Below are positions 52,750 through 59,632 of a DNA stretch of 64,000 nucleotides, piece after piece (the first letter of the stretch is position 1; the number at the start of each line of letters is the position of its first letter). This DNA comes from a bacterium (GTDB lineage Bacteria > Chloroflexota > Dormibacteria > Dormibacterales > Dormibacteraceae), in NCBI GenBank assembly GCA_004299235.1, contig SCQL01000003.1:1-64000 (forward strand), in the 5' to 3' direction. The position numbers and the translations under genes were made by a program. The notes beneath the pieces are model-generated. The model saw only the letters and a list, made by a program, of their open reading frames with translations. It made no database searches and was not told where the DNA came from.

Positions 52750-53772
52750 ATGAGCACCTCCACCGACGGATCGCGAAGGCCAGTCCACGTCACCGTCACC
52801 GGGGCCGCGGGCCAGATCGGATACGCGCTGCTGTTTCGCATCGCCTCGGGTCAGCTGCTGGGTCCGGACCAGCCGGTCGTCCTCCGCCTGCTGGAGATCG
52901 AGCCGGCGTTGAAGGCGCTCGAAGGCGTGGCCATGGAGCTGGACGACTGCGCCTTCCCGCTGCTCCACGACATGGTCCTCACGAGCCGGGCCGAGGAGGC
53001 GTTCGACGGCACGTCCTGGGCGCTGCTCGTGGGCTCGGTGCCGCGCAAGGCCGGCATGGAACGGGGCGACCTGCTATCCATCAACGGCGGGATCTTTGGG
53101 CCGCAGGGCAGAGCGATCGCCGCCAGGGCGGCGAGCGACGTGCGCATCCTCGTCGTCGGCAACCCCTGCAACACCAATTGCCTCATCGCCCGCGCCAACG
53201 CGCCCGAAATCGCGCCCGAGCGGTGGTTCGCGATGACCCGCCTGGACGAGAACCGCGCCAGGACCCAGCTCGCCAAGAAGGCGGGAGTGCCGGTCTCGGC
53301 GGTGTCGAACCTGACGATCTGGGGCAACCACTCGGCGACGCAGTACCCCGACGCCCGGAACGCGCGGATCGCCGGCCGGGGCGTCTACGAGGTGATCGAG
53401 GACCACGACTGGCTCAACAAGGAGTTCATCGGCACCGTCCAGAAGCGGGGCGCCGCGGTGATCGAGGCGCGTGGGATGTCGTCGGCCGCCTCCGCCGCCA
53501 ACGCGGTGATCGACTCGATCAACAGCATCCGCAACCCGACCCCCAGGGGCGAATGGCACTCGCTGGCGGTGGTCAGCAAGGGAGAGTACGGGGCCCCGGA
53601 GGGCCTGCAGTTCGGCTTCCCGGTGCGCACCGACGGCACCAACTGGGAGGTCGTCCAGGGGCTGGAGCACGACGATGAGGCCAAGGAGCGTCTCCGGGTC
53701 ACGACCGAAGAGCTGGTCCAGGAGCGGGAACTCGTCAAAGCGCTGGTCCCCTCCGCCGGGATGCACGCCTAG
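52750..53772 (+). CDS. mdh: Malate dehydrogenase
   Basis: TCA-cycle NAD(P)-dependent malate/oxaloacetate enzyme of the cytosolic-type group. It has [25 protein letters not shown] (nucleotide binding), [15 protein letters not shown] (substrate Arg), [17 protein letters not shown] and the catalytic His in [11 protein letters not shown]. At 340 residues it is full length. The stop lies 3 bases before a palindromic repeat. It is flanked by unrelated genes. Confidence 0.96.
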
Positions 53773-53774
53773 GG

Positions 53775-53809
53775 CCCCTCACCCCAACCCTCTCCCCAGG
53801 GGGAGAGGG
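53775..53809. repeat. Palindromic repeat, copy a (left flank of the DUF559 gene)
   Basis: 35 bp: CCCCTCACCCCAACCCTC and then TCCCC-AG-GGGGAGAGGG. It is nearly identical to the reverse complement of copy b (54226-54260), so the two copies flank the DUF559 gene as inverted repeats. Confidence 0.85.
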
Positions 53810-53851
53810 AGATCGCTGTAAAGGCGCTATCCAACCAGGGCGGTCGTCCGG

Positions 53852-54256
53852 ATGATTCGCGGCGTGCGACGAGATCCGATCCACATCGAACGTGCCCGAC
53901 AACTCCGCAAGGACATGGGCGACGCCGAGCGGCGCTTGTGGTCGAGGCTGCGGGCGCGGCGACTGGCCAGTTACAAGTTCCGCCGGCAGCACGCGATCGG
54001 CCCGTACATCGCGGACTTCGCGAGCATCACCGGGCGCCTGGTCGTCGAGGTCGATGGCGGCGAGCACAACGAGCTCATCAACCAGAGGCGAGATGCCATG
54101 CGCACCCGGTACCTGCAACGAGCGGGTTACCGGGTTTTGCGCTTTTGGAACCACGAGGTCCTGTCCGAAACCGATGACGTCACCGAGGCGATCTGGAACG
54201 CGCTGAACGCTGCATCAACGAGTGGCCCTCTCCCCTCCGGGGAGAGGGTTGGGTGA
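53852..54256 (+). CDS. DUF559 (Vsr/very-short-patch-type) endonuclease-like protein
   Basis: A 134-residue PD-(D/E)XK-fold protein of the DUF559 family. Family features: RARQLRKDMGDAERRLWSRL, KFRRQHAIGPYIADF and the active-site-like LVVEVDGGEHNE (Asp-Gly-x-x-His), then GYRVLRFWNHEVL. The last ten residues (GPLPSGERVG) and stop are encoded by the right palindromic repeat. It lies between inverted repeats, so it may be part of a repeat-associated mobile unit. Function unknown; a DNA-cleaving role is inferred from the fold. Confidence 0.88.
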   Translation: MIRGVRRDPIHIERARQLRKDMGDAERRLWSRLRARRLASYKFRRQHAIGPYIADFASITGRLVVEVDGGEHNELINQRRDAMRTRYLQRAGYRVLRFWNHEVLSETDDVTEAIWNALNAASTSGPLPSGERVG

Positions 54257-54260
54257 GGGG
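54226..54260. repeat. Palindromic repeat, copy b (right flank, inside the DUF559 3' end)
   Basis: CCCTCTCCCC-TCC-GGGGAGAGGG, then TTGGGTGAGGGG. It is inverted relative to copy a and supplies the last codons and stop of the DUF559 gene. Confidence 0.85.
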
Positions 54261-54293
54261 CGGGTGCCGGCCTTCCGGCGGTTAGCGTCCATC

Positions 54294-54299: not shown

Positions 54300-54305
54300 T
54301 TGGGG

Positions 54306-56393
54306 GTGAGCGTCACCCTCGACCGCCACAGCTTTCCGTTCACCGCGATCGTCGGCCAGGAGTCGATGAAGCTGGCTTTGATCCTTAACGCCATCGTGCC
54401 CACCATCGGCGGCGTTCTGATCCGCGGCGAGAAGGGCACGGGCAAGTCCACGGCCGTTCGCGCCCTGGCCCGGCTGCTCCCCGAGCACGACGTCGTCGAG
54501 GGCTGTCATTTCGGCTGCGACCCGACCGACCGCGAAGCCCTCTGCGCCGACTGCCGCGGGCGGGCCGGGGTCCTGCCCCACCACAAGCGCCGGATGCGCG
54601 TGGTCGAGCTGCCGATCAACTCGTCCGAGGACCGTGTGGTCGGCACGATCGACATCGAGGCGGCCCTGCGGACGGGCGCCCGGCGCTTCGAGCCGGGCGT
54701 GCTGGCGGAGGCCAACCGCAACATCCTCTACGTCGACGAGGTCAACCTGCTGGACGACCACCTGGTCGACGTGCTCCTCGACGCCGCGGCCATGGGCGTC
54801 AACGTGGTCGAGCGCGAGGGCGTGTCGTTCGCCCATCCAGCGCGGTTCATCCTGGTCGGGACGATGAACCCCGAGGAGGGGGAGCTGCGCCCGCAGCTGC
54901 TCGACCGCTTCGGCCTGTGCGTCGACGTCGAGGGCATCCGCGATCCCGACCAGCGCGTCCTGATCGCCGAGCGCGACGCGGCGTTCAAGCGGGGCGAGCA
55001 CGAGTTCGCGAACGAATTCGCGGCCGCCGACAACAACCTGGCGCGCGCGCTGGGAGAGGCGATCGCGGCGGTGAAAAACGTGCGCGCCACACCGGGTCAC
55101 GCGCGCCTGATCTCTTCGCTCTGCGTCGAGGCCGAGGTCCTGGGACACCGGGCCGACGTCGTCATCGACCACGCGGCGCGAGCCCTGGCGGCATACCGGC
55201 GTCACGCCGCGCCCGGCCGCGACGACATCTACGACGCCGCGGCCCTGGCGCTGGCGCACCGCGCCCGGCAGCCGTTGAAGCGAGACCAGGACGAGACCAC
55301 CTCGGCCGAGCATGGGGAGGAGCAGGAGGGTTCGAAGCCGGCCGAGCCGGAAGCGGGCGACCCGCAGGCGTCGGACAGCGAGTCGGCGGCGGAAGCCTCG
55401 GCCGAGTCGAGCGCCAGCGCGTCCGACAGCGGCGAGCAGTCCGCCGGCAGCGACCAGGGCACGACGACCGGGGGCTCCAGCGGTCACGAGTCCGCGACCG
55501 ACGCCGTGGAGACCTTCAACCTGCGGCGCATCGACCTGCCGCGGCAGAGACGCGTGCGCAAGCAGGGCGGCAAGCGCGCGGCGAGCCAGACTCCGGATCG
55601 CCGCGGCCGCTACGTGCGAGCGGAGCCGAAGGCCAAGGTCAACGACCTCGCCATCGACGCCACGGTGCGTGCGGCGGCGCCGATGCAGAAGGACCGGGGG
55701 CGCAGGGAGGGCGAACGCCTCAAGCTCGAGCGCGAAGACCTGCGGCAGAAGGTCCGCGAGCGCAAGGTGGGCAACCTGATCGTGTTCGTGGTCGACGCGT
55801 CGGCGTCGATGGACGCGGAGCAGCGCATGGCCGCGACCAAGGGCGCCATCCTGTCGCTCCTGCAGGACGCGTATGTGCGGCGCGATCGCGTCGCGGTCGT
55901 GATCTTCAAGAACCGGACCGCCGAGGTGGTGCTGCGCCCGACCTCCAGCGTGTCGCTCGCGCGCCGCCGCCTCGAGAGGCTTTCGGTCGGCGGCACGACG
56001 CCGCTGACGCACGGCCTGATGGCCGGCTACAAGGTGGTCAAGACCGAGCTGCTCCGCGACCCTTCGATCCGCCCGCTCCTGGTCCTCATCAGCGACGGTC
56101 GCGGCAACATCTCGATGTTCAAGGAAGAGCCGCTGATCGAAGCCCAGAAGGTGGCGGCGATGATCGAGGCCGAGCAGATCGATTCGCTGGTCATCGACTC
56201 CGCTCGCGACTACAGCCACCTGCCGTCGGTGCAGCACCTCGCGAGGGTGGCGCCGATGTATCAGACCTACGCGATCAACGCCTGCGCGGACCTGGCCGAG
56301 AGGATGGGCGCGCGCTACTACGGCCTGTACGACCTCTCGCGCGACGAGATCGCCTCGGCGGTGGAGCGCGAGCTCGGCAGGGGCGGCCGGTAA
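54306..56393 (+). CDS. Mg/Co-chelatase subunit D (BchD/ChlD-like) with intact AAA+ P-loop
   Basis: Motor/platform subunit of an ATP-driven metal chelatase for Mg-protoporphyrin or cobalt-corrin. 695 residues: an AAA+ domain (1-330) with Walker [10 protein letters not shown], Walker [11 protein letters not shown] and a Cys cluster CHFGCDP...CADC; an acidic Ser/Ala-rich linker (about 330-415); and a VWA domain with the MIDAS motif DASASM. D subunits usually have a degraded P-loop, while this one is intact. The AAA+ part is closely similar to the I subunit that follows. The large H/CobN subunit is not in the window. Confidence 0.9.
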
Positions 56394-56396
56394 CAT
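56391..56396 (+). promoter_or_regulatory. -10 element TAACAT before the chelatase I gene
   Basis: TAACAT includes the stop codon of the D gene and ends 9 bases before the ATG at 56406, so the I gene could be transcribed separately from a leaderless promoter. Confidence 0.4.
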
Positions 56397-56405
56397 TCCA
56401 AGCCT

Positions 56406-57437
56406 ATGGCCATAGACCGATACTCCTATCCGTTCACCGCGATCGTCGGCCAGGACGAGATGAAGCTGGCATTGGTGCTCAACGCGATCAACCCGTCCAT
56501 CGGCGGCGTCCTGATCCGCGGCGAGAAGGGCACCGGCAAGTCGACCGCGGTCCGCGCGCTCGCCAAGCTGCTGCCGGAGCAGCAGGTCGTCGAAGGCTGC
56601 CACTTCGGCTGCCACCCCGACGACCCCGAGGACTGGTGCCTCGACTGCCGCGAGCGGGCGCGATCGGGTGAGCTGCCGGTGACCACGCGGCGCATGCGCG
56701 TCGTCGAGCTGCCGATCAACGCCTCGGAAGACCGCGTCGTCGGCACCATCGACCTCGAGGCGGCGTTGAAGGAAGGCTCGCGACGCTTCGAGCCCGGAGT
56801 GCTCGCGGAGGCGAACCGGAACATCCTCTACGTGGACGAGGTCAACCTGCTCGACGACCACATCGTCGATGTGCTGCTGGACGCGGCCGCCATGGGCATC
56901 AACACCGTGGAGCGCGAGGGCGTGTCGGTCTCGCATCCATCGCGCTTCATCCTGGTCGGGACCATGAACCCCGAGGAGGGCGAGCTGCGGCCGCAGCTGC
57001 TCGACCGCTTCGGCCTGTGCGTCGACGTGGAGGGCATCCGCGACCTCGACCAGCGGGTCGCGATCGTCGAGAAAAGAGCCGTGTGGGAAGACGACCCCAA
57101 CCTCTTCTACGAGCAGCACGCCGAGTCGGAGCAGAGCGTGCGCTCACAGATCGCCGAGGCGATCGCGACCTTTCCCGAGGTCGAGCTGCCGCGCGAGATG
57201 CTGCGGCTCATCGCTCAGATCTCGATCGCCTTGGAGGTCGACGGTCACCGCTCCGACCTGGTGTGCGCGCGCGCCGCGCAGGCGAAGGCGGCCTATGACA
57301 GCGCGAGCGAGGTCGGCGTCGGCCACGTCGGCGAGGTGGCGGAGATGGTGTTCGCCCACCGCGTCCATTCGGTGCCTTTCGGCAAGGGCGGGCCGAACCT
57401 GGGCGAGGTCATCGCCCGCATGGTCGGACAGGCTTAA
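56406..57437 (+). CDS. Mg/Co-chelatase subunit I (BchI/ChlI-like ATPase)
   Basis: AAA+ ATPase of 343 residues: Walker A GEKGTGKS, Walker [12 protein letters not shown], Cys cluster CHFGCHP...CLDC, and the arginine-finger region [15 protein letters not shown]. The sequence is nearly the same as residues 1-280 of the D protein upstream, indicating an internal duplication. It is 12 bases behind D. With no bacteriochlorophyll genes in sight, cobalt insertion for B12 (used by NrdJ) is as likely as Mg insertion. Confidence 0.9.
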
Positions 57438-59327: not shown

Positions 59328-59632
59328 GGTGGCCGGTAAATCACCAACAAATCTTTCGCCGCGCAGCGGTAGCAAGCCCGCGCCCCTCACCCTTGCCCTC
59401 TCCCCGGCGGGGAGAGGGGGCGCCACCGACATCGCTTGAGGCCTCCGAACGCCACGCGCACACCCCCTTCTCAGTCCTTCAGCCGCCTGCACGGGGATCT
59501 GACAGCCTAGGGCTGGAGTGGTGGATGCCGGGAGGGTCGTATTCGACGGCTCGGTAGACTTGGGTCTAACACACAGCCAGGTCCCGCGGCCGCGCCGTGG
59601 GCAGTCGCCACTCTGCAGTGGTAGGGAGTGAG
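59328..59632 (+). other. Intergenic region with repeat copy c and tkt leader
   Basis: About 305 bases without a gene. The first half contains repeat copy c (59383-59418). The second half holds a TAGACT hexamer (59555-59560) that could start the transketolase transcript, giving a leader of about 65 bases with a short CCACT/AGTGG hairpin (59609-59622) and a Shine-Dalgarno-like GGGAGTGAG before the ATG. Confidence 0.5.
59383..59418. repeat. Palindromic repeat, copy c
   Basis: CCCCTCACCCTTGCCCTC and then TCCCC-GGC-GGGGAGAGGG, in the same orientation as copy a and with the same tail, but with no DUF559 gene beside it. Confidence 0.8.

Follow-up and report, generated by a model that had tools for sequence, protein, structure and literature searches.

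Genes of the DUF559 family are, at most of the loci sampled here, flanked on one or both sides by hairpin repeats that carry a third, G-rich strand, and each gene tends to have a repeat type of its own. Judged by its sequence, the repeat is the BoxC/PIT/TM_ECO triplex motif known from E. coli and not a new one. We consider it probable that gene and repeats together make up a minimal nuclease-plus-repeat unit, which spreads its cognate repeats in a homing-like manner. Since repeat and protein domain are each known, the novelty lies in the link between them; a literature search, with poor coverage of preprints and many journals, returned no paper joining DUF559 or ycjD to these repeats, and an earlier description is possible.

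The DUF559 locus and its repeats

The locus lies near the end of the window, by which we mean the whole stretch of 64,000 nucleotides analysed (Table 1). Inverted copies of a palindromic repeat had been reported on both sides of the gene by the first-pass annotation, and both copies were recovered. Read on the - strand, the left copy is CCCTCTCCC CCTG GGGAGAGGG TTG GGGTGAGGG GC, representing in this order a pyrimidine arm, a loop, a purine arm, three nucleotides (N3), and a third G-rich strand; the right copy, on the + strand, is CCCTCTCCC CTCCG GGGAGAGGG TT GGGTGAGGG GC, with a second loop of 2 nt, not 3. The two are inverted and 75% complementary when aligned ungapped, and nearly identical with a 1-nt gap per side. 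The term "palindromic" holds for the hairpin but not for the whole repeat, as the hairpin carries an asymmetric G-rich tail. Likewise, the right copy encodes not ten codons, as annotated before, but nine (PLPSGERVG) plus TGA, the latter belonging to the GGGTGAGGGG tail of the repeat. Allowing up to 3 mismatches, a search with a 20-mer from the repeat gave 2 matches in the window (53777 and 59385) vs 0.00 expected, and 0.02 chance occurrences are expected for the palindromic core. Rfam gave no family above gathering score, and PADLOC returned only weak and partial matches, hence there is no case for a defence system. Beside the unit, at 54300-57437, two chelatase-like ATPase genes are arranged in tandem, with closely similar protein starts.

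Table 1. Position of the DUF559 gene, its repeats, and neighbouring genes within the window
Feature	Position	Strand	Remarks
Malate-dehydrogenase-like gene	52750-53772	+	left neighbour of insertion site
Left repeat	53774-53809	-	fits published TM_ECO/BoxC consensus; tail directed away from gene
DUF559 (PF04480) gene, Vsr-like/EDxHD-like endonuclease	53852-54256	+	134 aa, intact; PF04480 E=1.2e-38
Right repeat	54226-54261	+	inverted with regard to left repeat; encodes last 9 codons and stop of the gene
Magnesium-chelatase-like gene	54300-56393	+	right neighbour of insertion site
Dispersed solo repeat, same family	59383-59419	-	no adjoining DUF559; CCCCTCACCCTTGCCCTCTCCCCGGCGGGGAGAGGGG read on +

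Elsewhere in the window genome (G000), most CTGACCCTCTCCC copies lie in a larger repeat of ~300 bp with ccaaacatccgttcgggcgtcaagc on one side. This larger repeat with its hairpin (L001, L002, L009-L016, L018-L020) is often found at contig ends and also in the interior of contigs, and it is possibly another mobile element carrying the hairpin. On contig C7 (5777-6803), at least six repeat copies (5777, 5897, 6017, 6119, 6179, and 6784), several of them spaced ~120 bp apart, have the look of a local array.

Predicted fold and activity of the nuclease

With 131.8 bits against a curated Pfam cut-off of 20.6, the window protein is a member of PF04480, while the NCBIfam vsr model gave 18.6 bits, below its cut-off of 97.85. 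Alignment-invariant DUF559 residues are E26, Q46, D55, E66, H72, and D81 together with an RFWN block, and in the window protein E26, D55, E66, D68, H72, D81, and RFWN are all intact. The best structural match of its AlphaFold2 model (mean pLDDT 82) was the gonococcal DUF559-like protein 3hrl, followed by the EDxHD homing endonuclease I-Bth0305I (3r3p; E 1e-4, TMt 0.76), with Vsr ranking lower. Thus, the predicted fold is PD-(D/E)XK and resembles those of EDxHD homing endonucleases and Vsr, in line with the earlier description of the protein as Vsr-like and not a HUH transposase. No HUH Y1 transposase (Y1_Tnp, PF01797) was found in the window genome, and RAYT mobilisation was rejected there for this reason.

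Caulobacter cells without the ScmA methyltransferase show an SOS response for which VsrA, a DUF559 protein, is needed (PMC12907096), so that at least one family member is likely an active nuclease. VsrA is induced as part of the response to DNA damage, and has been read as a mismatch-repair enzyme linked with a cytosine methyltransferase (PMC12907096).

The repeat is a known triplex motif

The left copy, on the - strand, fits the TM_ECO consensus 5'-CCCTCNCCCN3-6GGGNGAGGGN3GGGNGAGGG (PMC4666352), from which the right copy deviates by its shorter second loop. BoxC-type repeats, described in E. coli as early as 1992 (Bergler 1992), occur in >260 genomes, with 23 copies listed for MG1655 (PMC4666352). 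The E. coli motif is able to form an intrastrand triplex in vitro (Holder 2015, PMC4666352); footprinting in vivo gave no support for a stable triplex, and tests for promoter or terminator activity found neither (PMC4666352). Furthermore, BoxC repeats, which also occur as inverted pairs, were linked with genome rearrangement, and with genome variability in 56 E. coli strains, and the authors of 2015 reported that mobility genes were never found near the motif, leaving its origin unanswered (PMC4666352). Compared with these descriptions, the repeat is the same but is here tied to DUF559 genes, has several stem classes in which the third strand covaries, and occupies the ends of units.

DUF559 genes are flanked by palindromes

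Repeats near DUF559 genes are not confined to the window: a strong palindrome was present within 250 bp of 88/110 DUF559 loci vs 98/379 matched windows, and among 195 distinct full-length DUF559 genes, 176 had a pyrimidine-rich palindrome within this distance, including 114 with one at each end of the gene. Palindrome density was 3.1 per kb near DUF559 compared to 0.72 in other intergenic DNA. Genuine vsr genes, belonging to a sister nuclease family that shares the fold, had flanking palindromes in 0/29 loci. For VsrA, itself of the DUF559 family, no repeats were reported (PMC12907096). The span between the nearest hairpins around DUF559 had a median of 454 bp (interquartile range 432-496), and 106/162 DUF559 ORFs extend into their downstream hairpin.

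Where both tails were readable, they pointed inwards in 53 units and outwards in 6, and were discordant in 5. The window unit is of the out/out type, which differs from the in/in majority and was counted against a mobile unit; it might have arisen from flanking inverted pairs like those of Sinorhizobium, had the inner member of each pair been lost. In Sinorhizobium, at L173, L214, and L215, inverted REPIN-like hairpin pairs of ~130 bp with a partly shared spacer stand on both sides of the DUF559 gene; ISRm16 interrupts the downstream pair in S. meliloti Ak57. On a Synechocystis plasmid (L175) the DUF559 gene lies beside a DUF1156 gene amid VapC and hypothetical genes, which points to a different setting for some members of the family. 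In phage records, matches to DUF559 were few and distant.

Each gene has its own repeat, and the third strand covaries with the stem

Cognate pairing was assessed within genomes, and therefore free of relatedness effects, for 60 genes from 16 genomes with several DUF559 genes each. In 51/60, the upstream flank best matched, in inverted form, the downstream flank of the same gene, and 0/20,000 permutations reached the observed sum. In Sphingobium nicotianae (G041), for instance, the 5 examined units had 5 different hairpins. Comparison of repeat sequences with nuclease clades, as proposed in the first-pass annotation, revealed that the stem class follows the DUF559 tree, with 29 changes, compared to 71.8 when labels were shuffled (lowest value in 200 shuffles, 63).

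Between classes, the tail changes along with the stem and stays the mirror image of the purine arm. The stem GGGGAAGG, for example, is paired with the tail GGATGGGG, and in another class GGGGAGGG is paired with GGGTGGGG. Scored by the purine-motif triplex rule, with T or A allowed opposite A, a perfect 8-nt mirror was present in 192/238 hairpins with a G-rich tail, and in class-swap permutations 0/20,000 were comparable. As the tail covaries with the stem, the third strand probably matters, and this mirror covariation fits an intrastrand triplex.

Could GC-rich intergenic sequence or terminators mimic both the association and the mirror symmetry? The repeats are indeed rich in C/T and G/A, and hairpins are commonly terminators. 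The controls already contradict this explanation, which we regard as barely conceivable: the reversed pattern was near absent, with 88 matches vs 4266 for the true pattern, far intergenic DNA and vsr loci are without such repeats, own-pair and class-swap permutations gave the 0/20,000 reported above, and in published tests the motif showed no promoter or terminator activity (PMC4666352).

Co-occurrence of gene and repeats across genomes

In 349 genomes from one phylum sample, we called DUF559 at E<1e-10 and counted as repeat-positive those genomes with at least 5 copies of one stem class. DUF559 was present in 91/349 genomes, repeats in 72, and both in 58. Without correction for kinship, 58/91 DUF559-positive vs 14/258 negative genomes had repeats (odds ratio 31, p=4e-29), i.e. 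repeats were not found in equal numbers in genomes lacking the gene. Of the two observations that the first-pass annotation would have taken as refutation, namely DUF559 genes elsewhere without nearby repeats and repeats just as numerous in genomes devoid of DUF559, neither was made. The association was kept in every genome-size bin above 2.5 Mb. For vsr, the odds ratio was 2.3, and this association disappeared in DUF559-negative genomes (p=0.71). The window's own family showed a similar pattern, with one clear exception, G010.

Several findings weigh on the other side. The 14 genomes with at least 5 repeats and no strong DUF559 gene were counted against a mobile unit, many genomes hold only few copies, and the larger repeat encloses many of the copies found in the window genome, all three being weak points of this reading. 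Moreover, 33 DUF559-positive genomes fell below 5 copies of the stem class tested, some of them carrying other stem classes, and a scan of 400 kb of G423 for dispersed hairpin families revealed only ~14 relevant hairpins, so that a DUF559-rich genome need not be repeat-rich. G440 contains 146 repeats and no intact DUF559, but a shortened remnant of the gene that abuts a repeat.

As a separate observation, G280, G301, G194, and others combine tens to >100 repeats with a lack of detectable intact DUF559, and in some of these genomes a Y1 transposase is missing as well.

These exceptions bear on two alternatives. First, DUF559 might be a passenger, that is, cargo between repeats moved by a RAYT/IS200 (Y1) transposase or by host recombination. 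Other kinds of REP are, in the literature, associated with RAYTs and thought to be mobilised by them (PMC3686654, PMC2817692), and Y1 transposases do occur in 7/15 exception genomes; yet Y1_Tnp is absent from the other 8/15 as well as from the window genome, gene-specific repeat types are not expected of cargo, and the gene family that best matches the repeats is DUF559 itself, on a unit of one gene. We therefore deem a passenger role improbable. Second, in an addiction- or restriction-like system the nuclease would cut DNA without protected repeats, or the repeats would act as titrating decoys. In Caulobacter, a DUF559 protein is genotoxic when the methyltransferase is missing (PMC12907096), and repeat copies persist in cognate sets, which would both suit such a system, but the unit of ~450 bp has a single gene with no methyltransferase or partner gene seen, and loss of the gene is tolerated while many repeats survive, as in G440. 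This second alternative seems very unlikely to us.

Unit boundaries and presence/absence

Sharp edges are best seen in Sphingobium nicotianae, where two units of 452 bp and 89% identity end exactly at the repeats, and the DNA outside is unrelated; G016 contains a similar pair. At the insertion site of the window, 531 bp separate the malate-dehydrogenase-like gene from the chelatase-like one. In the equivalent site of G001, this gap is 44 bp and contains neither DUF559 gene nor repeat, in G010 it is 78 bp with one solo repeat, and in G005 it is 237 bp with repeats of another type. The search for empty sites in sister genomes, which the first-pass annotation had proposed, was thus answered by G001 and G010, both from sister genera; among close relatives, no clean empty site turned up at base level. 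No clean empty site spanning the junction of either S. nicotianae unit was detected in 91 genomes of the genus, and in a strain-level test on Sinorhizobium meliloti plasmids, repeats were abundant and the gene occurred only in related-locus records, yielding no insertion contrast.

The original suggestion of a mobile or maintained unit draws support from cognate pairing, unit edges, and empty sites. With regard to maintenance, a solitary Vsr-like repair nuclease might trim or resolve hairpins and triplexes, while the repeats would spread by slippage or recombination and be tolerated only in the presence of the cognate enzyme, with the flanking copies regulating or insulating the gene. The Vsr-like fold of DUF559 and the view of VsrA as a damage-induced mismatch-repair enzyme (PMC12907096) are compatible with this, and the frequent position of the gene end inside the repeat would suit 3'-end regulation. 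Maintenance alone, however, leaves unexplained the sharp unit edges with unrelated flanks, the private inverted repeat pairs of paralogs, and the presence or absence of whole units, and we judge it unlikely, albeit the strongest of the alternatives.

ycjD and BoxC in E. coli

The DUF559 gene of E. coli is ycjD, located between sapF and fabI (L339, L340); BoxC repeats occur both at its 3' end and farther downstream. An earlier name of fabI is envM. By position, one of the repeats is no. 9 of the MG1655 copies, so that the same motif stands beside ycjD-fabI in K-12, and the discovery reference cited for the motif is the envM sequence paper (PMC4666352).

The ycjD region was present at >=80% cover in 3333/5426 E. 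coli genomes and absent in UTI89 and an O157:H7 isolate, among others. In UTI89, an RND-efflux/TetR operon replaces ycjD in the sapF-fabI interval; the absence allele is hence a swap with the efflux operon and not a clean empty site. At the tkt-ypfG site, the repeat region varies between strains. In E. coli 2024CK-00616 (L344), ycjD is shortened by a ~106-bp deletion between short direct repeats (TGCTGGAGAATATTC), which takes its 3' end together with the adjoining BoxC-like hairpin.

Relation to known systems and proposed mechanism

The unit is reminiscent of REP/RAYT systems (REPtrons, REPINs), in which a single nuclease gene lies between inverted palindromic repeats (PMC2817692, PMC3686654, PMC3116915); dispersed solo repeats, inverted pairs, and cognate classes of gene and repeat are further similarities. 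In contrast to RAYTs, the enzyme here has a predicted PD-(D/E)XK/EDxHD fold and not that of a HUH Y1 transposase, and the repeats are C/T-G/A triplex motifs with the tail TTGGGGTGAGGG instead of a GTAG tag. Flanking cognate inverted repeats and dispersed copies are present, whereas the Y1 gene and the GTAG tag are lacking. With differences in enzyme fold, repeat sequence, and tag alike, the unit falls outside REP/RAYT, and the comparison drawn in the first-pass annotation stands as an analogy with an unrelated enzyme: on the best reading, the unit would work like REP/RAYT without being a member. CGTC-tagged REPs (PMC3733652) are likewise a palindromic superfamily stated to be without dedicated transposase, but their sequence is of the ATTCCC..GGGAAT type; they were rejected as a DUF559 partner, as none was near the DUF559 genes scanned.

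I-Bth0305I matches the predicted fold, and E, D, H, and D residues (E26, D55, H72, D81) that may correspond to those of EDxHD enzymes are invariant in DUF559. I-Bth0305I differs by extra DNA-binding regions and a ~60-bp target (PMC3943268), while DUF559 is a bare protein of catalytic size between its own repeats, which are only its proposed target. The likeness to EDxHD homing endonucleases points to a homing-like way of copying into cognate repeats.

In our favoured model of a homing-like unit, we infer that an autonomous element of ~450 bp consists of a DUF559 gene bracketed by two inverted hairpin-plus-third-strand repeats, with each enzyme recognising its own bracketing repeat. The nuclease would nick or cut cognate repeats, probably when these are folded into a hairpin or intrastrand triplex, as might occur in single-stranded DNA at replication. 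As in homing, another cognate repeat could then be the template from which repair of the break copies a single repeat, a pair, or the entire unit, which would give rise to repeat-gene-repeat units and to many non-autonomous solo repeats and inverted pairs. Solo repeats and inverted pairs may outlive the gene, and BoxC of E. coli would represent a population of this kind. A wider claim, which in our opinion could equally well hold or fail, is that DUF559 genes and triplex-forming repeats constitute an unrecognised class of minimal mobile elements, with BoxC and similar repeats as non-autonomous progeny and ycjD as the E. coli representative.

Through the link to these repeats, a common domain of unknown function gains a testable role. 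DUF559 units are suggested by the sequence data as the source of the unexplained BoxC repeats of E. coli, and this origin can be tested in K-12, where both ycjD and the BoxC copies are present. If the enzyme acts on folded DNA, the unit would amount to a REP/RAYT-like solution that evolved a second time, independently and with an unrelated nuclease.
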